The notes under the pieces were generated by a model. That model did no database searches. It was given only the letters and a program-made list of their open reading frames with translations, and was not told the origin of the DNA. A stretch of 64,000 nucleotides of DNA from contig JAAXKA010000026.1 of NCBI GenBank assembly GCA_012269555.1, positions 1 through 64,000 of the forward strand, read 5' to 3'. The position numbers and the translations under genes are program-made. The stretch is from Alphaproteobacteria bacterium (lineage in GTDB: Bacteria; Pseudomonadota; Alphaproteobacteria; Puniceispirillales; Puniceispirillaceae). The number at the start of each line of letters is the position of its first letter. The first letter of the stretch is position 1. Positions 10,652 through 31,365 of this stretch are shown here, piece after piece.

Positions 10652-11422
10652 ATGGGTTTTTTTCAATCACTCGGTCGAAGTGGTTTAAGTTTATGCCGCT
10701 TGATAGGCAGCATAGCATTATTTATTGTGCTTTCATTACGTTGGTGTCTGATACCACCTTTTTATGGTAGGCAGATAGTGAGACAGCTGATTGATGTTGG
10801 CTACTACTCTCTTCCTGTGGTTGGGCTTACAACACTTTTCTCTGGAATGGTACTTGCTCTACAAAGCTATACTGGTTTTGCGCGTTTTTCGGCTGAAGAC
10901 ACTGTTGCGACCGTTGTAGTTCTTTCTGTCACTCGTGAACTTGGGCCAGTTTTAGCAGGATTAATGGTTGCTGGCAGAGTTGGGGCTTCTATCGCTGCTG
11001 AAATTGGAACTATGCGCGTTACTGACCAGATTGATGCTCTGGAAACACTATCAACAAGACCTATGCAATATTTAGTGGGACCTCGCTTGATAGCAGGAAC
11101 AATATGCCTTCCTATATTGGTTCTAATTGGCAATATTATTGGAGTTTTCGGAGGCTATCTAGTTGGAATTTATAGGCTTGGATTTAATTCTTCCGTATAT
11201 CTTTCAAAAACATTAGAATTTCTTGAGTTTAGTGATGTAATGTTAGGGCTTTTAAAAGCAGCTATATTTGGATTTATTATTGCTCTGATGGGATGCTATC
11301 ATGGATATCATTCTGGTCGTGGCGCGGAGGGTGTTGGAAAGGCTACAACAAATGCGGTTGTTTCTGCTTCAATATTGATTCTAATAGCTAATTATTCTGT
11401 TACTGCTTTGTTCTTTGGATAA
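10652..11422 (+). CDS. mlaE: MlaE-family ABC transporter permease (lipid asymmetry)
   Basis: An inner-membrane permease of the MlaFEDB type, which moves phospholipids between inner and outer membranes. The 256-residue protein has about five or six hydrophobic segments. It carries the family motif SVTRELGPVLAGLMVAGRVG near residues 90-110 and the conserved EIGTMRVTEQ-like loop, here EIGTMRVTDQIDALE. The ATG is preceded by an AAGGG site. The ATPase gene follows six bases later. The periplasmic substrate-binding MlaD is not next to it, unlike the Escherichia coli operon. Confidence 0.92.
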   Translation: MGFFQSLGRSGLSLCRLIGSIALFIVLSLRWCLIPPFYGRQIVRQLIDVGYYSLPVVGLTTLFSGMVLALQSYTGFARFSAEDTVATVVVLSVTRELGPVLAGLMVAGRVGASIAAEIGTMRVTDQIDALETLSTRPMQYLVGPRLIAGTICLPILVLIGNIIGVFGGYLVGIYRLGFNSSVYLSKTLEFLEFSDVMLGLLKAAIFGFIIALMGCYHGYHSGRGAEGVGKATTNAVVSASILILIANYSVTALFFG

Positions 11423-11427
11423 TTAAA

Positions 11428-12246
11428 ATGACTGATGAAAAAAAACAGAATGTAAAGATAAAAATCTCAAATCTTGTTAAGCATTTTGGAGGAGATTATG
11501 TTCTTAACGGATTCAGTTTATCATTAAAAAAAAGTGAATCTCTGTGTTTAATTGGCACATCTGGAAGTGGAAAATCAGTGGCTTTAAAATGTCTAATTGG
11601 GCTGCTATCTCCTGACTCTGGCTCAATAACGGTAGATGACCAAGAGACTATAGGACAAAGTAGACCTCAACATGAAGCGATGCTCAAGCGTTTTGGAATG
11701 ACCTTCCAGTTTGGCGCCCTCTTTGATTCTCTTCCTATTTGGGAGAACGTTACCTTCAGGTTACGTCAAAAAGAAAAATTAAATAAAAAAGAAGCAAAAG
11801 AAATAGCAGGAGATATACTAAGCCAACTTGGCCTAGCTCATCAAGTACTTGAACTTTTCCCAGCTGAATTATCCGGGGGTATGCAGAAAAGGGTTGCAAT
11901 AGCAAGGGCAATAGCAGACAAACCTGAAATTCTTTTATTTGATGAACCAACATCAGGTCTTGACCCTATAACTTCTGGTGTGATTAATGATTTGATTTTA
12001 AACTCAGTTAATAGACTTGGTGCAACTACCCTTACCATCTCGCATGATATGGCATCTGTTCGCCAAATTGCAGATACAGTCGCAATGTTGCATAATGGGC
12101 GCATAATATGGTGCGGACCTATTAAAGATATAAATCATACAGGTATTTCCGAGGTTGACCAATTTGTAAATGGCAAACCTTATGGACCCCTTACAACAAA
12201 TAAACGAGAAATGCTTCAATCGAAGCAAACTGAGATATCAGTTTAA
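11428..12246 (+). CDS. mlaF: MlaF-type ABC transporter ATP-binding protein
   Basis: The ATPase partner of the upstream MlaE permease. The 272-residue protein has Walker A GTSGSGKS near residues 43-50, the Q-loop region FQFGALFDS (an MlaF-type variant), the signature LSGGMQKRVAIARA, Walker B LLFDEPTSGLDP and the switch histidine in TISHD. Its stop overlaps the radA start by one base (TAATG). A cytoplasmic STAS partner (MlaB) is not present nearby. Substrate identity as phospholipid comes from family knowledge. Confidence 0.92.
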   Translation: MTDEKKQNVKIKISNLVKHFGGDYVLNGFSLSLKKSESLCLIGTSGSGKSVALKCLIGLLSPDSGSITVDDQETIGQSRPQHEAMLKRFGMTFQFGALFDSLPIWENVTFRLRQKEKLNKKEAKEIAGDILSQLGLAHQVLELFPAELSGGMQKRVAIARAIADKPEILLFDEPTSGLDPITSGVINDLILNSVNRLGATTLTISHDMASVRQIADTVAMLHNGRIIWCGPIKDINHTGISEVDQFVNGKPYGPLTTNKREMLQSKQTEISV

Positions 12247-19396: not shown

Positions 19397-20989
19397 TTAT
19401 ATGTCTATCATCGCAATAAGGTCAGATACAGAATTAGCTTCGTGCGCTTTTTTATCCCATCTAATAGCTTTAAACCTTGGGAAACGAGTTGCAACACCTG
19501 ATTTATGACGTTTAGAGAGTTGCACTGAATCGAATGCAATCTCTACTACTAATGTTTTATTGACTTCTCTTACCGGTCCAAATTTTTTAATGATGTTTTC
19601 TCTAACAAATTTATCAAGCTTTTTTAACTCATCATTGCTAAATCCAGAATAAGCTTTGGCTACTGGCATTAATATGTTTTTGTCTTCTGCACTGTCATAA
19701 GTCCAAGCACCAAGTGTAAAATCAGAAAAAAATGAGGAACGTTTTCCGTGACCTCGCTGTGCATATAAAACAACTAAATCAGCTGTAAGCGGATCCCGCT
19801 TCCATTTAAACCATTTTCCTTTAATTCTGCCTGCGTGATAAGCACTTGTTATCTCTTTTAGCATTACACCTTCTACAAGACCGCCTGCCCTACATTTCTC
19901 TCGCCATTTTTTTAAATTAAAAAGGTTGGGGTTGGGCAATATCTCTGAAAGACCGATATAAGGCATTTTCAGGTCTGAACTTATCCGTTTTTCCAAAATA
20001 CCCCTTCTATATCCCAGCGTTTGTTCTCGAATGTCTAAACTTTGATCAAATAAGATATCATATGCCATAATAAAAACTGGGGTTTCTGTAAGCATTTTAG
20101 CAGACGGTTTCTTTCGATTTAGTCTAAGTTGTAATTGCTGAAAACTTCCAATCTTAAGCGGAGTTCCTGCTAAAAGTTCTCCATCAATAACACCCTGCCA
20201 TTCAAGTGGCCTAGTTAATTCAGGAAAAGAGCTTGAAATATCATCTCCCGACCTGGAGAATATGCGTAAATCATCATTCGCCGAAACTAATTGAATACGG
20301 ATTCCATCCCATTTCCATTCTGCTTGAAAAGAACTGAAATCTATCTTTGTAATCTCAGTTTCTGAAAGTGGGTGTGCCAACATCATTGGTCGAAATACTG
20401 CTTTACCTTTAGCATCAGGCTTATCAGCTTTACCCTCTAACCAATTAAATAATTCCAAATAGGGAGGCTGTATTAGTGGCCAAATTTGTTCAATTTCGTC
20501 CACTTCAATTTCATATGACTTTGACAGTGCTAGTCTTGCCATTCGTGCCGACACACCTACTCTAAGCCCACCAGTGACCAATTTCAATAATGCCCATCTT
20601 TGTGATTCTGGCATTTGGTCAAGCAGTCCCTCTAAGTAATCACTTGCATGCAACTTTGATGACTCCTGTAACACTGTTATGATATCACTTATTTTTATCT
20701 CTATATCTTTTTCGGATTTTGTTGGCCATATAAGGGCAACTGTTTCTGCTAAATCTCCAACAAAATCATAAGATAAATCAAATAGTAAAGGGTCACATCG
20801 TTTATATGCTATTTGACGAATAAGATGTGTTTTAACACCCTGAATAGACAATTCTCCTGTCAATGCTGATATCACGAAACCCCTATCAGGGTCCTTTGTA
20901 TTCTTAATAAATTCTTCTAAATAAGCTTGTTTGACCGAGCGTTGTGGTGCGTATAACAAAGAATGAAGCAAATCTGAAAATTTCTTCAT
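19397..20989 (-). CDS. ATP-dependent DNA ligase of the ligase-associated damage-response module
   Basis: Seals DNA nicks using ATP. The 530-residue protein has an N-terminal DNA-binding domain and the nucleotidyltransferase motif I WKWDGIRIQL with the adenylated Lys226. Motif III is around VIDGELLAG and motif V is KGKWFKWKRD, followed by an OB-fold domain. This architecture matches the bacterial ligase type found with a metallo-beta-lactamase exonuclease, an Lhr-like helicase and PdeM (TIGR04120-TIGR04123 set). Its start overlaps the exonuclease stop by four bases, so the two are translated together. It is additional to the essential NAD-dependent LigA, which is not in the window. Confidence 0.93.
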   Translation of the reverse strand: MKKFSDLLHSLLYAPQRSVKQAYLEEFIKNTKDPDRGFVISALTGELSIQGVKTHLIRQIAYKRCDPLLFDLSYDFVGDLAETVALIWPTKSEKDIEIKISDIITVLQESSKLHASDYLEGLLDQMPESQRWALLKLVTGGLRVGVSARMARLALSKSYEIEVDEIEQIWPLIQPPYLELFNWLEGKADKPDAKGKAVFRPMMLAHPLSETEITKIDFSSFQAEWKWDGIRIQLVSANDDLRIFSRSGDDISSSFPELTRPLEWQGVIDGELLAGTPLKIGSFQQLQLRLNRKKPSAKMLTETPVFIMAYDILFDQSLDIREQTLGYRRGILEKRISSDLKMPYIGLSEILPNPNLFNLKKWREKCRAGGLVEGVMLKEITSAYHAGRIKGKWFKWKRDPLTADLVVLYAQRGHGKRSSFFSDFTLGAWTYDSAEDKNILMPVAKAYSGFSNDELKKLDKFVRENIIKKFGPVREVNKTLVVEIAFDSVQLSKRHKSGVATRFPRFKAIRWDKKAHEANSVSDLIAMIDI

Positions 20990-22002
20990 TCGGTTTCATC
21001 CTCATATCCAATTAATGAAAGAGCTTTAGCATCTAACCCCATTTGACTACAAGCATGTATCAGTGCATCTTCTCTCCCATGGGTTATCCAGACCTGTGTA
21101 GCTTTTACCTCTTGAATTGTGCGCAAAATGTCATTCCAATCAGCATGATCTGATATTATAAGGGGTAATTCGACACCACCTTGTTTAGCACGCTGTCTTA
21201 CCTGCATCCATCCCGATGCAGAAACAACAAGAGGGTCAGGTAATCTTTGCGCCCATTTGGTTCCTATAGCAGAAGGTGGTGCGATGATAAATTTGTTGGC
21301 TAACGATCTATTGTGATTTTCAATTTTGTCTAATGGTATTGTTTGCAAGCTACCCAGCTGAATGCCGAAAGATTGGTATAATTCACAAAGTTTTTTTACC
21401 GCACCATGGATAAAAATTGTCTCATTATACCCAGCCGCACGAAGCAATGCTATTAAGCGTTGTGCTTTGCCAAGAGAATAAGCTAAAACTGCAATTGAAC
21501 GCTCTGGAAACAGATGTCTAACCTGAATTAATTTTTTGATTTCATCTTCCGGCTTTGGATGAGAAAAAACAGGCAATCCAAAGGTGGCCTCTGTTATAAA
21601 AACGTCACATTGCTCTACCTGAAAAGGGACACATGTCGGATCTAAGCGTCTCTTATAATCTCCAGCCGCAATTATTTTTGTATTTTCATATTTTAGCACT
21701 ATCTGCGCAGAACCAAGCACATGACCAGCCGGAATAAGCTTTACTTCAACCTCTCCTAAAGTAAATTTATCATTATATGTAAGTGCAGTTTTTTGGTTAG
21801 CAAAATTTTCTCCATATCGTGCCGACATAATAGCTAGTGTTTGTTTCGTTGCAATCACATGTTTATGACCAGGCCTTGCATGATCAGAGTGTCCATGAGT
21901 AATAATAGCAGTATCAACGGCTCTAATTGGGTCTATGTGCGCTTTTGCGGGTAAGACATATAAACCAGGTTTAGAAATTTTTAGCCAGCTTGTATTTACC
22001 AT
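20986..22002 (-). CDS. ligase-associated exonuclease, metallo-beta-lactamase fold
   Basis: A 338-residue MBL-fold nuclease of the beta-CASP/Artemis type. The metal motif THGHSDHAR lies at residues 35-43. Further ligands are the histidine in GHVLGSAQ near 94 and the aspartate in AAGDYK near 113. The family is expected to process DNA ends before ligation. The overlap with the ligase start (ATGA) makes it the upstream partner in a two-gene unit. The start ATG at 22002 gives the MVNTSWLKI N-terminus that precedes the MBL domain. Confidence 0.92.
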   Translation of the reverse strand: MVNTSWLKISKPGLYVLPAKAHIDPIRAVDTAIITHGHSDHARPGHKHVIATKQTLAIMSARYGENFANQKTALTYNDKFTLGEVEVKLIPAGHVLGSAQIVLKYENTKIIAAGDYKRRLDPTCVPFQVEQCDVFITEATFGLPVFSHPKPEDEIKKLIQVRHLFPERSIAVLAYSLGKAQRLIALLRAAGYNETIFIHGAVKKLCELYQSFGIQLGSLQTIPLDKIENHNRSLANKFIIAPPSAIGTKWAQRLPDPLVVSASGWMQVRQRAKQGGVELPLIISDHADWNDILRTIQEVKATQVWITHGREDALIHACSQMGLDAKALSLIGYEDETE

Positions 22003-22036
22003 TAGTATAGGAGCGATACCTTTTTATTATTTTTGT

Positions 22037-22729
22037 TTATTCTGGCTTAGTTGTACCAAATAACCTTCGCCATTCCTCACCACTAAGATTGCGCAGGTCT
22101 ACTTGCTTATTTTCTGCAATCTCATATGCTTTTTTAACTGCCTTTCTTTTAAATAAACTCTCTCTCCAACGATCAATATTTGGAAAATTTTCTAAATTAA
22201 TTCCTTGTCTTTCGTAGCTCTTAGTCCATGGTAGAATTGCTATATCTGCAATCGTATATTCTTTCCCTGCTACATATTCACTCTTTGATAATTGAGTATC
22301 AAGAACTCCATATAACCGTGCTGCTTCATTCATATATCTTTCAATTGCATAATCAATTTTAACTGGAGCATAATGATTAAAATGGTGAACCTGTCCGAGC
22401 ATTGGACCAAAACTAGCCATTTGCCACATCAGCCATTCCCAAACATTAATGCGAGCTTTAATATCAGAGGGGTTAAATAGTCCAGTTTTCTCGGATAAAT
22501 ACAACAAAATGGCACCAGATTCGAAAATGCTTGTTGGTCGTGAGTTAACGCCGTTTTGATCTATAATTGCTGGCATTTTATTATTAGGTGAAAAGAGAAG
22601 AAATTCTTGTTTATATTGGTCTCCTTTCGATATATCAACATAATGGATTTTATATGGCAATCCCATCTCTTCAAGAGCAATTGTTATCTTGTGACCATTT
22701 GGTGTTGGCCAATAATATAAATCAATCAT
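22037..22729 (-). CDS. glutathione S-transferase, Nu-class-like
   Basis: A 230-residue GST with a thioredoxin-like N-terminal domain: DLYYWPTPNGHKITIALEE, with the YfcG/Ure2p-like substrate region and the NNKMPAI cis-proline loop. An all-helical C-terminal domain follows. The start at 22729 fits the family N-terminus; the reading frame stays open upstream to 22846, but that extension overlaps the helicase start and has no homology. Related proteins reduce disulfides or act on glutathionylated substrates. It lies inside the four-gene repair module, a less usual member, 34 bases from the exonuclease and divergent from the helicase. Confidence 0.9.
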   Translation of the reverse strand: MIDLYYWPTPNGHKITIALEEMGLPYKIHYVDISKGDQYKQEFLLFSPNNKMPAIIDQNGVNSRPTSIFESGAILLYLSEKTGLFNPSDIKARINVWEWLMWQMASFGPMLGQVHHFNHYAPVKIDYAIERYMNEAARLYGVLDTQLSKSEYVAGKEYTIADIAILPWTKSYERQGINLENFPNIDRWRESLFKRKAVKKAYEIAENKQVDLRNLSGEEWRRLFGTTKPE

Positions 22730-22813
22730 TAAAAATCCTCTATTTTTTAAAAAAATGCCTTTTTTTATACAGTCTAATCGCAAGAAAAGCCAAAATATAA
22801 GTATGATAATAGA

Positions 22814-25267
22814 ATGAGCGAAATAGAAACAAGTCATATTACCCATAACAAAAACCTTCCATCAAAATTTCAGAGGTGGTTCTCAAATAGAGGCTGGCAA
22901 ATTTACGAGCATCAATTATCTATGATTTCGGAATTTAAGAAAGGAAATTCTTGTTTGCTTATCGCTCCCACAGGTTCTGGGAAAACATTATCTGGATTCT
23001 TACCAAGTCTTATTGAGCTTTGCGAGCTGCCATTTGAGAACAAAATAAAGCCTAAACTGCACACGCTTTATATCTCTCCCCTCAAGGCACTAAGTGTTGA
23101 TGTGCAACGAAATTTACAAATACCTATTACTGAAATGGATCTTCCAATTCTTTGTGAAACCCGTACTAGTGATACTAGCCCAAAAAAGAGGAATAGGCAA
23201 AAAGTAGCGCCACCTAATATATTACTTACCACCCCAGAATCTCTTGAGTTAATGTTAGCATGGCCAGAGGCTAAAAATTATTTCTTTAATCTATCTACAA
23301 TTATTATAGATGAGATACATTCTGTAATTGGCAATAAGCGAGGAGATTTGTTATCTCTATCCATTACTACGCTTCGTAATTATGCACCCAATGCATCATT
23401 CATAGGACTATCGGCTACAGTTGCAGATTCTGGGCAGTTGGCAAAATGGCTTGTACCTGAACCTAATAAAGTGACAATTTTAAAACCAAAAATAACTAAA
23501 AAAATAGATATCAAAATTTATTATCCGACATCGAGTGAAATTCCTTTCGCTGGGCACTCTGCAGATTATGCTGTTGCAGATATCTATCAGATGATATCAG
23601 CTCACAAAATTAGTCTGATATTTGTTAATACTAGGGCGCAGGCAGAATTGTTGTTTCAATCTTTATGGAAGGAAAATAATAATAATTTGCATATTGGATT
23701 ACACCATGGCTCTTTAGATGCTAGTCAGCGTCGAAAAGTAGAAAAAGCAATGGCGGAGAGTAAATTAGACGCTGTAGTAGCAACTTCTTCACTAGATTTA
23801 GGTATAGATTGGTCAGACGTTGACCTTGTTATACAAGTTGGTGCGGCAAAAGGAACAACTCGCCTTATTCAACGTATCGGACGCTCAGGTCACAGTCTAG
23901 GAAAGCCCTCCAATGCGATAATTATTCCTACCAATAGATTTGAGGTAATAGAAGCGGTAGCAGCCCGAGAAAATATCCTTGATGGAAAGCTTGATAAGTT
24001 AGAAGAATATCCAGGAAGTATAGATGTTCTCGCTCAATATATTGTAGGTAGAGCAGTAGCAGGTTCTTTTGATGCTGAAAAACTTTATAAGCAGATACTT
24101 ACAGCACCGCCATATAGATCCCTCGAAAAGGGCACATTCTTAAAAATTTTGGAATTCGTTAGCACTGGTGGTTATGCTTTGGAGCATTATGAGCAATTTA
24201 GGCGCATCGTAAAAGGTATCGACGGCTTATATAGGCTTACAAATAAACGTGTTGCCTCAAGATGGCGTATGAATATTGGAACAATTGTCGAGACAACAAC
24301 ATTAAAAATAAAATTTGCCCGTGGCCCAGTTCTTGGGGAAATAGAGGAATATTTTGTCCAATCTCTTCGTACGGGTGATAGTTTTATATTTGCTGGCCGA
24401 GTGGTAGCTTTTGTAGAAATAATTAATATGCAAGTTATAGTAGAACCTACTATTGCCAAAGAACCAAAAGTGCCTACGTATGCTGGAGGCAGATTACCTC
24501 TTACGTCTGATATGTCTGAAAAAGTCAGGCATATTTTGCAATCTGTTGAAATTCATAAGTCTTTGCCTGGGCCTGTGCGAGAATGGCTAGAAATTCAGCA
24601 ACTTCATTCAAAATTACCTAATGCAGATACATTACTATTAGAAACATTCCAACGCGGAGAGCGTCATTATCTTGTTGCATATGGATTTGAAGGCCGGAAT
24701 GCACACCAGACATTAGGCATGCTTCTTACGAAACGGATGGAACGTCAACATTTAAAGCCTCTTGGATTTGTCGCAACAGATTATGCTATTGCCATCTGGT
24801 CTCTTGAAAAAGTGATTAAGCCAATTACCTTATTCACTCCTGATATATTAGGTGATGAGCTTGAGGAATGGATGGCAGAATCAACTATGTTAAAGCGATC
24901 ATTTAGGCAAGTTGCAATAATTTCGGGATTGATAGATAAAAAAATTCCAGGATTAGAGAAAACTAAAAAGCAGGTAACAATTAATTCAGATTTAATTTAT
25001 GACGTATTAAGGAAATATCAGCCAAATCATATATTGCTTGAGGCCACTAGGCAGGATTCTGCAAGAGGGCTTACTGACATTCGGCGACTTGGAGAGCTCT
25101 TAAATAGATTTGAAAACAAAATTACCCATATGGAGCTACCCAGAATATCTGCTTTGGCCATCCCTCTTTTACTGGAGGTCGGAAAGGAATCTGTTATGTC
25201 AGAGGCTGTTGAAACAATGCTAAAGGAATTAGAGACTGACCTAATTAAAGAGATCAGAAAAAGTTAA
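22814..25267 (+). CDS. ligase-associated Lhr-like DEXH-box DNA helicase
   Basis: An 817-residue superfamily 2 helicase of the Lhr-Core type. Motif I APTGSGKT is at 51-58, motif II DEIH at 166-169, motif III SATV near 199 and motif VI QRIGRSGH near 352. A C-terminal region typical of Lhr follows. Family members translocate 3'-5' on single-stranded DNA. In Pseudomonas the same set (helicase, MPE nuclease, exonuclease, ligase) forms one operon. The downstream pdeM-like gene begins five bases after the stop, so the pair is co-transcribed. An 84-base spacer separates it from the divergent GST gene. Confidence 0.93.
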   Translation: MSEIETSHITHNKNLPSKFQRWFSNRGWQIYEHQLSMISEFKKGNSCLLIAPTGSGKTLSGFLPSLIELCELPFENKIKPKLHTLYISPLKALSVDVQRNLQIPITEMDLPILCETRTSDTSPKKRNRQKVAPPNILLTTPESLELMLAWPEAKNYFFNLSTIIIDEIHSVIGNKRGDLLSLSITTLRNYAPNASFIGLSATVADSGQLAKWLVPEPNKVTILKPKITKKIDIKIYYPTSSEIPFAGHSADYAVADIYQMISAHKISLIFVNTRAQAELLFQSLWKENNNNLHIGLHHGSLDASQRRKVEKAMAESKLDAVVATSSLDLGIDWSDVDLVIQVGAAKGTTRLIQRIGRSGHSLGKPSNAIIIPTNRFEVIEAVAARENILDGKLDKLEEYPGSIDVLAQYIVGRAVAGSFDAEKLYKQILTAPPYRSLEKGTFLKILEFVSTGGYALEHYEQFRRIVKGIDGLYRLTNKRVASRWRMNIGTIVETTTLKIKFARGPVLGEIEEYFVQSLRTGDSFIFAGRVVAFVEIINMQVIVEPTIAKEPKVPTYAGGRLPLTSDMSEKVRHILQSVEIHKSLPGPVREWLEIQQLHSKLPNADTLLLETFQRGERHYLVAYGFEGRNAHQTLGMLLTKRMERQHLKPLGFVATDYAIAIWSLEKVIKPITLFTPDILGDELEEWMAESTMLKRSFRQVAIISGLIDKKIPGLEKTKKQVTINSDLIYDVLRKYQPNHILLEATRQDSARGLTDIRRLGELLNRFENKITHMELPRISALAIPLLLEVGKESVMSEAVETMLKELETDLIKEIRKS

Positions 25268-25272
25268 GCGAA

Positions 25273-26016
25273 ATGAATTCTCCGATTATCATTACATCAA
25301 ACCCTTCCTCTCTTTTTTATGAAAAAATTGAAATTAAATTCTGTGGGCATATATTCTGGTTATACGCAGATGGAACGTGTTTCCATGTGAAAAGCAAGAC
25401 ATTAATTGTTGCAGATATGCATTTAGAAAAAGCATTTTCTCAATCTAGAGCTGCATTGCTTCCTGGATATGATACCAAAGAGACTTTGGAACTGTTAGAA
25501 GCCGCCTTAAATAGGAACCTAACTCAAAATTGTGTTTTTCTGGGTGATAGCTTTCACAATGCAATGACAGCACAATCACTCGCAGACCCATATAGGGAAA
25601 AACTGCAGCAATTATCGCAGATAAATCATTTCACATGGGTAATAGGAAATCATGACCCAATATTGCCAAATTTTTTAATTGGAGAGCAATGCCATTCAAC
25701 ATCTATTGATAAGATTGAACTTAGACATCAACTTGAAAGACAGGGGTATGAAGAACAAATCACACCAGAGACTGGTCAAATTATTGGTCATTATCACCCA
25801 AAAGCAAAATTAAAATTACGAGCGGGAAAAGCATCTGGAAAATGTTTTATATTTGATAAAAAATTGATGATTATTCCAGCTTTTGGTGTCTCAACAGGTG
25901 GATTGAATATCACCGATAAAGCTATTTCAAAATTATTCTCTAACACCCCTGATGTTTATTTCTGCTATAAAACGAAACTTTATCATATTCATGATGTTGC
26001 AAATTTACGCAAATGA
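25273..26016 (+). CDS. pdeM: ligase-associated endonuclease PdeM (metallophosphoesterase)
   Basis: A 247-residue binuclear metallophosphoesterase. The metal-ligand motifs appear in order: VADMHLEK with Asp48 and His50, LGDSFHN, IGNHDP and GHYHPK. The Pseudomonas putida counterpart is a manganese-dependent nuclease acting on single-stranded DNA, so this product probably incises DNA during repair with the helicase just upstream (five bases apart). The C-terminal residues 200-247 are less conserved. The start ATG at 25273 leaves about 40 residues before the first metal motif, slightly long but without a better alternative. Confidence 0.9.
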   Translation: MNSPIIITSNPSSLFYEKIEIKFCGHIFWLYADGTCFHVKSKTLIVADMHLEKAFSQSRAALLPGYDTKETLELLEAALNRNLTQNCVFLGDSFHNAMTAQSLADPYREKLQQLSQINHFTWVIGNHDPILPNFLIGEQCHSTSIDKIELRHQLERQGYEEQITPETGQIIGHYHPKAKLKLRAGKASGKCFIFDKKLMIIPAFGVSTGGLNITDKAISKLFSNTPDVYFCYKTKLYHIHDVANLRK

Positions 26017-26073: not shown

Positions 26074-27405
26074 ATGCGTATTGCAATCGTCGGTTCAGGA
26101 ATTGCTGGTTTAAGTGCCGCATGGTTATTTCATAAAGAACATGAGGTTAAACTATTCGAGAAAGACAATCGATTTGGCGGGCATGCGCATACCGTTGACG
26201 TCAAAAAGGACGAAGACACTGAGCCAGTTGCCGTTGACAGTGGGTTTATTGTTTATAATGAGCTTAACTATCCCAATTTAATTGGGTTGTTTGATGCGTT
26301 AAATATAGAAACACAAAAAACCGAAATGTCTTTTGGTCTATCTTTATCTAATCGTCAATTTGAATATGCTGGTTCTTTGAAAGGGTTATTTGCACAACCT
26401 TTAAATTGGCTAAAACCAAAGTATTGGCTGTTACTTTCAAATTTATATAGGTTTTATAAAACGGCGGCAAATCAAGTAGAGCTTGGTCCAACAGATGAAA
26501 CTCTTCAAGAATTAATGATTAGAATGCGTATGAGTGATACTTTCATTTATGAACATATGCTTCCTATGGCTGCAGCAATTTGGTCTTGCCCATCCGATGT
26601 AATTATGCAATTTCCAGCGCGCTCATTTATAAAATTTATGGATAATCATAAATTATTAGATTTTTCAGGACGCCCTATTTGGCGAACAGTGAGCGGTGGA
26701 TCCAGAAATTACGTAGCAAAAATTATAAAAATACTTGGGTCGAATGCTAGGTGCAATGTTTCGATAAACAAAATTGAGCGGACACAACAAGGGGTCATTA
26801 TTTCAATTGAAGGGGAAAAATCAGAGTTTTTTGATAAGATTATTTTTGCAACTCATGCTAATGATACCCTTGAATTATTGCACGATATAAAACAAGAAGA
26901 ATATGATATATTGAGCCAATTTTCTTTCCAAAAAAATAATGTAATATTGCATTCACAATCTTCTTATATGCCAAAGAAAAAAATGGCATGGTCTTCATGG
27001 AATTACCTTTCCAATAATTCAGAAAAAAAGGAATTATGTGTAACCTACTGGATGAATAAGCTACAATCTATTTCCAACCACTTTCCGCTATTTGTGACAT
27101 TAAATCCTTTTTCTGATTTTCCGATAAAAGAACCTCATAGGCATTTCACCTATTTACATCCAATTTTTGACCAAAAAGCTATAGAAGCACAAAAAAAATT
27201 AAATACTATACAAGGACCTCTCCATACCTATTTTTGTGGAGCATGGACGAGATATGGCTTTCATGAAGATGGGATTTTATCTGCTGTAGCGATTGCAAAA
27301 GCATTCAATATTGAAATCCCATGGTTTAGCCCAACAGAAGCCTGCCATGCTCCCAATTGGCTAGACATCTGGGAAAAGAAAGCTACAGAAAATGCAGAAA
27401 CATAA
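26074..27405 (+). CDS. COG2907 FAD-dependent amine-oxidase-like protein (lipid module)
   Basis: A 443-residue flavoprotein with the dinucleotide motif IVGSGIAGLSAAWLF at residues 4-18, then the acidic end of the second beta strand and RFGGHAHTV. These are marks of the COG2907 NAD/FAD-binding family. The C-terminal FAD motif GAWTRYGFHEDGILSA is present. It is named after amine oxidases, but genes of this type travel with DUF1365 and cyclopropane-synthase homologues, so an acyl-chain desaturase or oxidase role is more likely (inference from context). The stop overlaps the next ATG by one base (TAATG). Confidence 0.85.
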   Translation: MRIAIVGSGIAGLSAAWLFHKEHEVKLFEKDNRFGGHAHTVDVKKDEDTEPVAVDSGFIVYNELNYPNLIGLFDALNIETQKTEMSFGLSLSNRQFEYAGSLKGLFAQPLNWLKPKYWLLLSNLYRFYKTAANQVELGPTDETLQELMIRMRMSDTFIYEHMLPMAAAIWSCPSDVIMQFPARSFIKFMDNHKLLDFSGRPIWRTVSGGSRNYVAKIIKILGSNARCNVSINKIERTQQGVIISIEGEKSEFFDKIIFATHANDTLELLHDIKQEEYDILSQFSFQKNNVILHSQSSYMPKKKMAWSSWNYLSNNSEKKELCVTYWMNKLQSISNHFPLFVTLNPFSDFPIKEPHRHFTYLHPIFDQKAIEAQKKLNTIQGPLHTYFCGAWTRYGFHEDGILSAVAIAKAFNIEIPWFSPTEACHAPNWLDIWEKKATENAET

Positions 27406-28238
27406 TGGGTCTTATATTAATGCAAGCAGTTAGATTAGCATCTTCAGTTATCACCCATACGAGGCACGGAAAACCATCTCATTTTTTGTCTCGCTCTGGT
27501 CTTTCCGTATTTATTGATTTGGATAAACTCATGATCGCGAATAGTCAAAGTAGCTTATTTTCAGTGGATAAATTTAATCTCATTTCATTTCATCAGTCAG
27601 ATTATGGTGAAGAGTATCTTCAAAAAAAAAGGAATAGAAAACACCCTCAAATTTCATACAAACTAGCAGATTATATCAGAAGCATAGCCCGTGAATATCT
27701 TCCTAATAAAAAAATTGCTAATATTTCTCTACTAACATTCCCAAGAATTCTTAATCTGAATTTTAACCCAATTTCAGTCTTTATCTGCCAAGATCAGGCA
27801 GGAAAAGACTGTTTCATAATTTACGAAGTTCATAACACCTTCGGCGACTCTCATAGTTATGTTAGTATTATCGAAGAAAACAATAGAAACCAGAAACACT
27901 TTGCGTTAAAGCAAATGCATGTTTCACCATTTTTTCCAACTGATGGTGAGTACATTCTTAGCTATAAAAAACGAAAAGATACGTTTTCGCTCATTGTACG
28001 CTATTTCAGAAACAACAAACCAGCTCTCACAGCAACAATGCGTGGCAATTTTTCTCAATTATCGTCTATTGAAATCTTGAAACATATTATTGTGAATAGA
28101 CAATTTCCACTAAGGCCCCTAATATCGATTCATTTTGAGGCCCTTAAGTTATTTTTAAAAAAATGCATTTATCATCCAAGACCAACACCCCCATCAATCC
28201 GAATTAGCCAATCACAAACTCGAAAGTCCAATAAATGA
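27405..28238 (+). CDS. DUF1365 family protein (lipid module)
   Basis: A 277-residue DUF1365 (COG3496) protein. Recognisable segments are the N-terminal SSVITHTRHGKPSHFLSR, the FDLD-like FIDLDKL, LLTFPRILNLNFNPISVFIC and the HVSPFFPTDGEY region. I choose ATG 27405, which overlaps the preceding stop by one base. Upstream in-frame codons to 27357 lie within the flavoprotein gene, and ATG 27420 is another option. The biochemical role of DUF1365 is not established; it nearly always sits between a COG2907 flavoprotein and a cyclopropane-fatty-acid-synthase homologue. The stop overlaps the next gene by four bases. Confidence 0.85.
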   Translation: MGLILMQAVRLASSVITHTRHGKPSHFLSRSGLSVFIDLDKLMIANSQSSLFSVDKFNLISFHQSDYGEEYLQKKRNRKHPQISYKLADYIRSIAREYLPNKKIANISLLTFPRILNLNFNPISVFICQDQAGKDCFIIYEVHNTFGDSHSYVSIIEENNRNQKHFALKQMHVSPFFPTDGEYILSYKKRKDTFSLIVRYFRNNKPALTATMRGNFSQLSSIEILKHIIVNRQFPLRPLISIHFEALKLFLKKCIYHPRPTPPSIRISQSQTRKSNK

Positions 28239-29431
28239 CAATAGAGCTATGGAAGTCCTTTAGAATTAAGGCATTAAAAAAGATTTTTGAACAGATACAG
28301 TTTGGTGAACTGCAAGTCACTTTCCCGGATGGAGAATTGACAAGCTATAAAGGCAAACAAAATGGACCGAAGGCTGATATAATACTATCTTCACACGACT
28401 CCGTAAAACACATACTAAAAAGTGGAATCATTGGTTTTTGTGAGGCCTATATGGATGAAAAAATTGAGACCAAAAACCTAGCCTCTCTAATAGAACTTGG
28501 TTCACTTCATTCTAAATTTCTTAGTCAGATACTGAATTTTAATCCAATAAAGCAGTCAATATTAAAATTTATTCACTTTACAAATCGAAACAGTAAAGCC
28601 GGTTCGCGCAAAAATATTGCTTACCACTATGACCTCGGCAATGAATTCTATGGAGAATGGCTTGATCCCTCCATGACTTATTCATCTGCTATTTTTGCAT
28701 CAGAACACCAAGGGCTCAGCGAAGCACAGTTTAATAAGTATAAAATAATTTCAGAACTTGCTGAAATAAAATCTGGTGATCGGGTGCTTGAAATCGGTTG
28801 CGGTTGGGGTGGGTTCATGGAGTACGCGGCTAAGACATATGACGCTCATATCACCGGCATTACAATTTCAAATTCGCAGTTTGATTTTGCATCAAAACGC
28901 ATGCAATCAGAGGGGTTAACGGGAAATACAGACTTAAAGCTTCTTGATTATAGAGACTTAAACCAGAAGTTTGATAAAATTATTTCAATAGAAATGTTTG
29001 AAGCGGTGGGTGAAAAGTATTGGCCAATTTATTTTAATAAAATAGGCCAATCATTAAAAAAAGGCGGTAAAGCAGCATTACAAATCATTACAATTAATGA
29101 AAACCAGTTTCCATTCTATCGAAATAATCCAGATTTTATTCAAAGATATATTTTTCCAGGCGGTATGCTGCCATCTCTAGCGGCCCTTCAGAAACCCATT
29201 AGCAGTGCTGGTTTACAGATAAATGATAGCTATGGGTTTGGTCTTGATTATGCAAAAACACTATCAAACTGGAGAAATCGCTTCGTCAAAGCCTGGCCAA
29301 AACTGGCAAATCAAAAAAAATTTGATAACCGCTTCTTCAAAATGTGGGAATTATACTTAGCTTATTGTGAGGGTGGCTTTAGAGGTGGAGTTATCGACGT
29401 AAAACAAATGCTAATAACGCATAAAATGTAA
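28235..29431 (+). CDS. cyclopropane-fatty-acid-synthase-family SAM methyltransferase with altered bicarbonate site
   Basis: A 398-residue member of the CFA synthase family, which methylates double bonds of membrane phospholipid acyl chains. SAM-binding motif LEIGCGWGG is at residues 185-193. The HYDLGNEFY segment is at 131-139 and YIFPGGMLPSL at 305-315. Aligned by eye to E. coli Cfa, the bicarbonate-binding residues Glu239, Ile268 and Tyr317 are kept (here Glu256, Ile285, Tyr339). Cys139 has become Ser151 and His266 has become Gln283. This suggests methylation without ring closure. It is the third gene in a coupled run (ATGA overlap with DUF1365). The family is certain; the product is not. 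Confidence 0.88.
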   Translation: MTIELWKSFRIKALKKIFEQIQFGELQVTFPDGELTSYKGKQNGPKADIILSSHDSVKHILKSGIIGFCEAYMDEKIETKNLASLIELGSLHSKFLSQILNFNPIKQSILKFIHFTNRNSKAGSRKNIAYHYDLGNEFYGEWLDPSMTYSSAIFASEHQGLSEAQFNKYKIISELAEIKSGDRVLEIGCGWGGFMEYAAKTYDAHITGITISNSQFDFASKRMQSEGLTGNTDLKLLDYRDLNQKFDKIISIEMFEAVGEKYWPIYFNKIGQSLKKGGKAALQIITINENQFPFYRNNPDFIQRYIFPGGMLPSLAALQKPISSAGLQINDSYGFGLDYAKTLSNWRNRFVKAWPKLANQKKFDNRFFKMWELYLAYCEGGFRGGVIDVKQMLITHKM

Positions 29432-29631: not shown

Positions 29632-30153
29632 ATGAACAAGTTAACAAATACTTATGGAACTATAGCGTTATCAGAGAATTTTGTTCCTGAAAACTATTTT
29701 ACTGGTAACATCGAAGCCACCGGCGTATTTGTAGACCGTTTTGGCGTCATTAGAAGACGATTTAATGTATCTATCATAGGTAGTAAAAAAGATAATGGGT
29801 TTTCATTAGATGAGTACTTTTTATTCGATGATGGTGAGCAGGAAATTAGGAAGTGGGAAATTGAGAAAATAGACCACGAAACTTACGTAGGAAAATGTGA
29901 AGATGTATGTGGTAAAGCTATTGGTAAATTATGCAATTCCATTTTAAATTGGCAATATCATTTCAATTTAAAAATATTTAATCAAAAAATTAAAGTTAAA
30001 TTTGAGGATATTATGGTTCAACAAACACCCTCAATCATGCTTAATAATGCGAAGATAAAGAAATATGGCCTTTTGCTTGGGCAGGTATTCATTTCTTTCA
30101 ATAAAAATCCACAACCATCTTCTTACACTGAACCACTATATGCGGCCAAATAA
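29632..30153 (+). CDS. DUF3833 family protein (lipid module)
   Basis: A 173-residue protein matching the DUF3833 pattern: a DRFGVIRRRF segment near residues 36-45, DEYFLFDDGEQEIRKW near 60-75, and a C-terminal KYGLLLGQVFISF end. Many members are lipoproteins, but no lipobox or signal sequence is visible here; the N-terminus is polar, so a cytoplasmic location is likely unless the start is wrong. The function is unknown. It follows the CFA homologue after 200 bases and may have its own promoter. It shares its neighbourhood with CFA-linked genes in other proteobacteria. Confidence 0.78.
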   Translation: MNKLTNTYGTIALSENFVPENYFTGNIEATGVFVDRFGVIRRRFNVSIIGSKKDNGFSLDEYFLFDDGEQEIRKWEIEKIDHETYVGKCEDVCGKAIGKLCNSILNWQYHFNLKIFNQKIKVKFEDIMVQQTPSIMLNNAKIKKYGLLLGQVFISFNKNPQPSSYTEPLYAAK

Positions 30154-30154
30154 A

Positions 30155-30186
30155 AATCATATTTGTCCTTAAAATAACAAATGATT
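30155..30186 (-). terminator. hairpin terminator between convergent DUF3833 and NTF2-like genes
   Basis: AATCAT plus TTGT (30155-30166, two bulged bases) pairs with ACAAATGATT (30177-30186), a ten-pair stem. On the minus strand it is followed by TTTTTATTT, which fits termination of the leftward SDR/NTF2 unit; the other direction has a weaker T-run. It overlaps the stop codon of the NTF2-like gene by two bases. Confidence 0.5.
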
Positions 30187-30628
30187 ATTGCTTTAATTTA
30201 AACATTTTTAGTAAAAGACGCGTGGTAAAGCCTAAAACCGGAATTAAAGTGAGTAGTTGACTGGCACTATCCCAATGGTCATGATGTGTTGTGATCTTAC
30301 CTTCTGCATTTGCTTTAACCTCTGATATGCCCACTATATTTATCTTAATAAATCTAAATCTTTTAACTTTTCCAGTTAACCGCCATTTAATATAACTTGC
30401 CTTTTGTGATTCACTTAGATCCAATATTTCAAATTTTGGGTCTGCCATTACCTCGAACATATGACTAAATATGGCAATAAACTTTGTTTTACCACAGGTA
30501 ATGTTAAAAGGGTCAGAGAATTCAATATCATCAGAGACCATCTTACTCAAATCTGCTAAATTTTCAGCGGTCAGTTGTGAAAATAAATGAGCATATTTAT
30601 AAATAAGTGAACAGTTTTCTGTATTCAT
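30185..30628 (-). CDS. NTF2-like/SnoaL-fold protein (lipid module)
   Basis: A 147-residue protein of the nuclear-transport-factor-2-like fold. It shows the usual order: an N-terminal helix, a LSKMVSDDIEFSDPFN segment with the acidic pocket start, and a beta-rich second half ending in HHDHWDSASQLL. Such proteins can be enzymes or binding partners; no active-site residues can be assigned. It overlaps the SDR stop by four bases (ATGA), making a two-gene leftward unit that converges on DUF3833. SDR plus SnoaL pairs accompany CFA-type genes in several alphaproteobacteria, so a role in the same lipid pathway is plausible. Confidence 0.75.
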   Translation of the reverse strand: MNTENCSLIYKYAHLFSQLTAENLADLSKMVSDDIEFSDPFNITCGKTKFIAIFSHMFEVMADPKFEILDLSESQKASYIKWRLTGKVKRFRFIKINIVGISEVKANAEGKITTHHDHWDSASQLLTLIPVLGFTTRLLLKMFKLKQ

Positions 30629-31365
30629 CGATTAGTTATCCATCTGATTACCTTAAAATAAATACTTTTTGGTAAAATTCTCAGAAGTTTCATTATTATT
30701 ACAAAGCCAGTTGGAAAGCATATTTCAAATTTGTTACTTTTAAGGCCTTTAATAATATTATTAGCCGCTTTGCTTGCGGAAATAATTTGTGGCATTTTGA
30801 AATCGTTTATAGCGGTAGCCTCTGTCTCCACAAACCCCGGACTAATAATTTGTACCTTTATCCCTAGTGGAGTTAAGTCTATGTGCAACGCTTCAGCCAA
30901 ATTACTCAATGCTGCTTTTGTTGGTCCATATGCAGCTGACCTTGGTAATCCTCCATATCCTGCTGTTGACCCCATAATTACGATATGACCTGTTTGAAGA
31001 CCAATGAATTTGGGTATAATACTATCTAGAGAATGAATGACTCCCATGTAGTTCACCATCATATGGCCATAAAATTCCTCAGAATTAAGTTCAAGTCCGC
31101 CAAGAGGTAAATATTTTCCAGCATTTAAAATAGCACAGTCAATATTTCCACCACTTTTAATACTCTTTTCGATAGCATTGTTGATTTCTAATCTATCGCA
31201 TACATCTGCACGAAAAATATTAATATTTTTGTGTTTGCCCTTTATTTTCTTAAGATGGTCGATCCGCCTCGCAACTGCACTTACTACGTGACCTTCTGAT
31301 GCTAAAGCAATAGATAGAGCTTTTCCGATACCAGAGCTAGCGCCTGTTATAAAATAATGAGCCAT
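30625..31365 (-). CDS. short-chain dehydrogenase/reductase (lipid module)
   Basis: A 246-residue SDR with TGASSGIGKALSIALA near residues 7-22, NAGKYLPLG near 86, the serine in IMGSTAGYGG and the AYGPTKAAL motif with catalytic Tyr and Lys. The C-terminal part has a hydrophobic stretch (GFVIIMKLLRILP), compatible with membrane association and a lipid substrate. It is translated together with the NTF2-like protein. The SDR family is certain; the substrate is inferred from neighbours. It differs from FabG at 4.3 kb and the YciK-like gene at 15.8 kb. Confidence 0.82.
   Translation of the reverse strand: MAHYFITGASSGIGKALSIALASEGHVVSAVARRIDHLKKIKGKHKNINIFRADVCDRLEINNAIEKSIKSGGNIDCAILNAGKYLPLGGLELNSEEFYGHMMVNYMGVIHSLDSIIPKFIGLQTGHIVIMGSTAGYGGLPRSAAYGPTKAALSNLAEALHIDLTPLGIKVQIISPGFVETEATAINDFKMPQIISASKAANNIIKGLKSNKFEICFPTGFVIIMKLLRILPKSIYFKVIRWITNR

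Follow-up and report, generated by a model that had tools for sequence, protein, structure and literature searches.

A probable ufaM orthologue in an uncultured alphaproteobacterial lineage and the active-site signature of its clade

The gene at positions 28235-29431 (+) of the window, the 64,000-nucleotide stretch analyzed here (contig JAAXKA010000026.1, assembly GCA_012269555.1, Puniceispirillaceae), is most probably an orthologue of ufaM, encoding a SAM-dependent fatty-acyl methyltransferase that would start furan fatty acid synthesis. The product belongs to PF02353, groups with the Rhodobacter sphaeroides-type enzyme and is linked to ufaD and ufaO (26074-28238). We assign the role from the clade and from the overlapping ufaD-ufaO genes; the residue pair (Ser151/Gln283) stressed in a sequence-only reading of this DNA is not its basis. 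That reading had guessed a methyl-alkene or furan product; linkage and clade bear out the pathway, and the residue pair falls away as the reason for it. The enzyme here very probably forms a methyl-branched alkene from which a furan fatty acid is then made: homology, clade, linkage and active-site columns come from the present analysis, the reactions are those of R. sphaeroides, Rhodopseudomonas palustris and Halomonas, and the same product is expected by analogy.

The ORF is intact and encodes 398 amino acids with the SAM motif VLEIGCGWGG. Its product matches the Pfam CMAS family (PF02353) with 294 bits (E 1.3e-87; cut-off 27 bits) and aligns over nearly its full length with Escherichia coli Cfa (HMMER E 3.6e-57). 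The predicted model (pLDDT 93.7) superposes on E. coli Cfa 6BQC with Z 39.4 and an rmsd of 2.1 Å over 340 residues, so that both the Cfa fold and the SAM motif are present. Scores lie below the NCBIfam equivalog cut-offs for Cfa (PRK11705, 284.8 vs. 400 bits; CPFASynBruc, 276.5 vs. 600; CfaB, 249.7 vs. 650). The gene is the sole clear CMAS-family member of its genome. Eight of nine genus relatives (G001-G009) have a ufaM gene, in those eight as the only close match, and many members of the same taxonomic family carry a second, Cfa-type gene. Ordinary cyclopropane synthesis may be absent from the window's genus.

ufaM is the third of three overlapping genes in the order ufaD-ufaO-ufaM. The ufaD-type gene (26074-27405, +) encodes a flavin amine-oxidase-like protein of 443 amino acids with 39.9% identity to the Cereibacter johrii protein encoded beside ufaO. 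The ufaO gene (27405-28238, +) encodes a DUF1365 protein (PF07103, 182 bits) of 277 amino acids, counted from the ATG at 27405; it shares 1 base with ufaD and 4 bases with the start of ufaM. Genes for a DUF3833 protein (29632-30153, +), a SnoaL/NTF2-like protein (30185-30628, -) and an SDR oxidoreductase (30625-31365, -) follow; these are the usual neighbors of the cluster, and they accompany it in relatives as well. The same ufa cluster occurs in alpha-, beta- and gammaproteobacteria. In a first sample, ufaO was linked to 65 of 77 genes for UfaM-type proteins vs. none of 73 for Cfa-type proteins; in a second, both ufaD and ufaO were seen with 26/39 UfaM-type and 0/12 Cfa-type proteins, and 8 of the 13 UfaM-type cases without both partners lay on short stretches of about 4 kb. 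Just upstream (19397-26016) the window holds clustered genes, named by eye, for DNA ligase-like, MBL-fold nuclease-like, Lhr-type helicase and phosphoesterase proteins, interrupted by a glutathione-transferase-like gene; this group resembles known Lhr DNA-repair clusters.

In Azospirillum and Ensifer, rpoE-chrR directly adjoins the ufa cluster, and Azospirillum ramasamyi has a single row of rpoE-chrR-ufaD-ufaO-ufaM-DUF3833-NTF2-SDR. The window's own genome has an ECF sigma gene followed by one for a ChrR-type anti-sigma factor (locus L265, G000:C145; Cupin_7, 48.5 bits), a pair unlinked to the ufa cluster. A scan of the window for TGATCC-N16-20-TAA, which we take to be the RpoE-ChrR promoter consensus, gave 3 matches vs. 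4.1 expected, none of them before ufaD.

In R. sphaeroides, UfaM makes 11Me-12t-18:1, which UfaD (RSP1091) and UfaO (RSP1090, DUF1365) turn into 9M5-FuFA; ufaM, ufaD and ufaO suffice, the other operon genes (RSP1087-1089) are dispensable for furan synthesis, and the R. palustris homologues yield the same product in R. sphaeroides (PMC7380195). In E. coli, the ufaM gene of a Halomonas ufaD-O-M cluster directs the formation of 11-methyloctadec-12-enoate (PMC12089945). By analogy, the ufaM product of the window would most probably methylate a monounsaturated acyl chain bound in phospholipid, at its cis double bond (in R. sphaeroides the chain is cis-vaccenate). The cation so formed would lose a chain proton, not a proton of the new methyl, and yield a methyl-branched trans-alkene. 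UfaD (26074-27405) would then form a methylated diene, and UfaO (27405-28238) would add oxygen from O2 and close the furan.

Active-site columns were assigned from a 150-protein alignment and by pairwise HMMER comparison with 6bqc. Both pair the five residues named in the sequence-only reading with E. coli Cfa as expected (S151/C139, E256/E239, Q283/H266, I285/I268, Y339/Y317). Its claim that Cys139 and His266 are replaced is confirmed, with no Cys or His at those columns, as is the retention of Glu256, Ile285 and Tyr339, whose Cfa equivalents (Glu239, Ile268 and Tyr317) are invariant in 116/116 clade members. Three further changes, Glu253 for Gly236, Ala257 for His240 and Glu186 for Asp173, split UfaM-type from Cfa-type proteins as well as Gln283 does. 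Where Cfa has Cys139, Gly236, His240 and His266, ufaM thus encodes Ser151, Glu253, Ala257 and Gln283.

A survey of 61 relatives, plasmid records, and genomes from the class (190) and the phylum (150) yielded 202 distinct family proteins, 116 of them UfaM-type and 86 others. Glu253, Ala257 and Gln283 occur together in all 116 UfaM-type proteins, and this full signature appears in no Cfa-type protein surveyed; among the 86 others, column 253 is Gly in 85, column 257 is His in 85 and column 283 is His in 84. Gln at the His266 column (116/116 in the clade vs. 2/86) and Ser at the Cys139 column (102/116 vs. 1/86) are too unevenly distributed for the pattern to be chance. Column 151 does vary within the clade (S 102, A 12, C 1, G 1). 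The proposal that the Ser/Gln pair defines a clade is upheld for Gln and fails for Ser, and the pair was rejected as a marker; the clade is marked by Gln283, Glu253 and Ala257, with Ser151 loosely associated. Within the SAM motif VLEIGCGWG (window 28784-28810), Glu186 is Glu in 116/116 UfaM-type proteins and Asp in 85/86 others. Two Cfa-type proteins (L040 and L335) have Gln at the His266 column together with Cys, Gly and His at the remaining columns, and are natural tests of the effect of Gln alone.

In a tree built without the trait columns, the UfaM-type proteins form one side of a branch with SH-aLRT 96; in a second tree, with mycolate enzymes added and trait columns again left out, the UfaM branch has moderate support (93/81). 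C. johrii served as the R. sphaeroides stand-in for the clade test, the PufL proteins of the two being identical. Its single family gene is not linked to the ufaD-ufaO pair, an arrangement shared with R. sphaeroides, and encodes a protein 42.9% identical to the product of the window ufaM, with the same active-site columns. The window protein shares a clade with this sole homologue, apart from the Cfa-type proteins.

For the choice between ring and branched chain, Glu253 is a better candidate switch than the Ser/Gln pair. We think it quite possible, at slightly under even chances, that Glu253, assisted by Ala257 and Gln283, redirects the cation by bringing a carboxylate of the protein into the bicarbonate pocket or next to it: Glu253 would face the pocket, opened by Ala257 and Gln283, and a chain proton would be taken instead of one from the new methyl. 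More tentatively, and with some doubt, the Glu253 side chain might itself replace bicarbonate on the carbocation, MmaA1 and MmaA4 being partly convergent, so that residues would encode cyclopropane vs. methyl-alkene or alcohol. A rival to this mechanism, though not to the UfaM identity, falls just short of an even prospect: the base would still be bicarbonate or water, bound by Glu256 and Tyr339, Ser, Ala and Gln would only reshape the pocket and Glu253 would be structural. It draws on the invariance of the Glu, Ile and Tyr ligands; because these are kept in all 116 proteins, the loss of bicarbonate envisaged in the earlier reading is unsupported. The literature searched contains no structure of a UfaM, which also leaves the rival room, and no mutant. 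Bicarbonate goes unmentioned in two experimental UfaM papers (PMC7380195, PMC12089945). Against the rival, MmaA1, MmaA4 and coclaurine N-methyltransferase (CNMT) likewise carry a carboxylate three positions ahead of the Glu that binds bicarbonate, close to the methyl or substrate.

The solved cyclopropane makers CmaA1, MmaA2 and PcaA have Gly137-Glu140-His141-His167 at the four columns corresponding to 253, 256, 257 and 283; MmaA4 has Glu, Glu, His and Gln, MmaA1 has Glu, Asp, Ala and His, and UmaA has Gly, Glu, Ala and His. MmaA1 and MmaA4, the two with Glu at column 253, are cation-diverting mycolate enzymes, MmaA1 forming a trans-alkene with a methyl branch and MmaA4 an alcohol; the column is Gly in CmaA1, MmaA2, PcaA, E. 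coli Cfa and a BfaB-type protein. UmaA counts against a Glu253 rule because it keeps Gly, yet is cited as a maker of methyl-branched trans-alkene (PMC8708032). In fragment-bound crystals of MmaA4, Glu146 helps to fix a water in the substrate site, together with Glu149 and Ser178 (PMC8708032), and CNMT E204, at the same column as Glu253, pairs with the substrate cation (PMC6099451). The mycolate enzymes form a clade separate from UfaM, with at least 4 changes at column 253 and 4 at column 283 on the tree, so the residue states arose more than once; those common to UfaM and MmaA1/MmaA4 look convergent.

The BfaB-type protein, Tsukamurella L262 (so classed by its gene pair, not by comparison with the BfaB sequence), retains all ligands: Cys, Gly, His and His. 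A 10-methylene acid is the reported, not yet fully proven, product of BfaB (PMC5660069). An unchanged base would fit, since in forming such a product, as in cyclopropane synthesis, it is the added methyl that gives up the proton. A BfaB/TmsB identity for the window gene was rejected: the two lie on separate branches of the tree, and the partner here is amine-oxidase-like, not an FAD-binding oxidoreductase.

That the cluster makes a methylated or oxidized chain other than the R. sphaeroides monomethyl furan is improbable. At 35.5%, the identity of the window UfaO to its C. johrii counterpart, encoded there in the adjacent ufaD-ufaO pair, is low, which speaks for such a departure, and UfaO identity stays low (24-36%) throughout the UfaM clade; against it stand the conserved gene set and order and the unchanged product of the R. 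palustris homologues (PMC7380195). A search of the window's own genome (247 contigs) for a CNMT/FufM-like second methyltransferase, run without a true FufM query, matched only ufaM, and a dimethyl furan is therefore not predicted. In another genome (L304, G262:C24:122000-139000), a second, CNMT-like CMAS protein (6gkv, E 8e-70) is encoded at 10952-12019 (-), a few kb from a ufaD-ufaO-ufaM cluster. It is a candidate FufM-type furan methylase because FufM resembles AT4G33110 (PMC10940516).

The sequence-only reading had argued that, with the base lost through Ser and Gln, a methyl-alkene could result. As stated, this is not supported: cotton GhCPS1 produces cyclopropane fatty acids of 17C and 19C, in yeast, tobacco cells and Arabidopsis, with Ser602 and Gln737 occupying the two sites, and E. 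coli Cfa C139S retains 31% catalytic efficiency (PMC3132707). In GhCPS3 the two residues are Cys and Gln and no cyclopropane was detectable, and the SAM motif is reported as ILEIGCGWG in GhCPS3 and DxGxGxG in GhCPS1 and 2 (PMC3132707). Since GhCPS1 has both residues, Ser plus Gln does not forbid cyclopropane, and a rule of the form "His lost, so no cyclopropane" was rejected. Plant sequence motifs were sought in the literature and none were found; the GhCPS1 residue at the Glu253 column may well be Glu, in which case Glu253 alone would not exclude cyclopropane. The window gene is nonetheless very unlikely to encode a plant-like cyclopropane synthase, one in which Ser/Gln is tolerated and bicarbonate is still the base. 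This reading is favored by GhCPS1 and by the retained Glu256, Ile285 and Tyr339 and opposed by the ufaO and ufaD linkage, the clade, the absence of the full signature from Cfa-type proteins and an Agrobacterium homologue of the plant enzyme in which no cyclopropane was found (PMC3132707).

Furan fatty acids are scavengers of reactive oxygen species, and those of R. sphaeroides also exert feedback on its singlet-oxygen sigma factor (PMC6852236). The window ufaM would extend the known furan pathway to one more uncultured lineage. The pathway and the kind of enzyme are already known; the analysis adds a testable, family-wide hypothesis of the active site. Its wider value lies in the clade-wide signature, in which Glu253, Ala257 and Gln283 are open to a few point mutants and which bears on how a single methyltransferase fold can direct the same carbocation toward a ring, an alcohol or a branched alkene.

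Among known systems, the window protein shares family, clade and active-site columns with R. sphaeroides RSP2144 and R. palustris RPA2569 (tested with the C. johrii orthologue); ufaM lies beside ufaO and ufaD in R. palustris as here, whereas it is unlinked in R. sphaeroides. E. coli Cfa (6BQC) has the same fold, SAM site, Glu239, Ile268 and Tyr317, but differs in operon context and, in E. coli numbering, by C139S, D173E, G236E, H240A and H266Q in the ufaM product. The plant enzymes (GhCPS1; the UfaD-UfaM fusion AT3G23510) have an N-terminal oxidase homologous to UfaD, and GhCPS1 also has the Ser and Gln; unlike the window protein they are fused, and the GhCPS1 product is a cyclopropane. The BfaB/TmsB type (L262) shares the family and, from the BfaB literature, an alkene-type product, but keeps Cys, Gly, His and His, and the proton leaves the added methyl. 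At the Gly236 column MmaA1 and MmaA4 likewise have Glu; MmaA4 further shares Gln (His266 column) and MmaA1 shares Ala (His240 column). These two enzymes differ in their separate clade, their mycolate substrates and the lack of an N-terminal domain.
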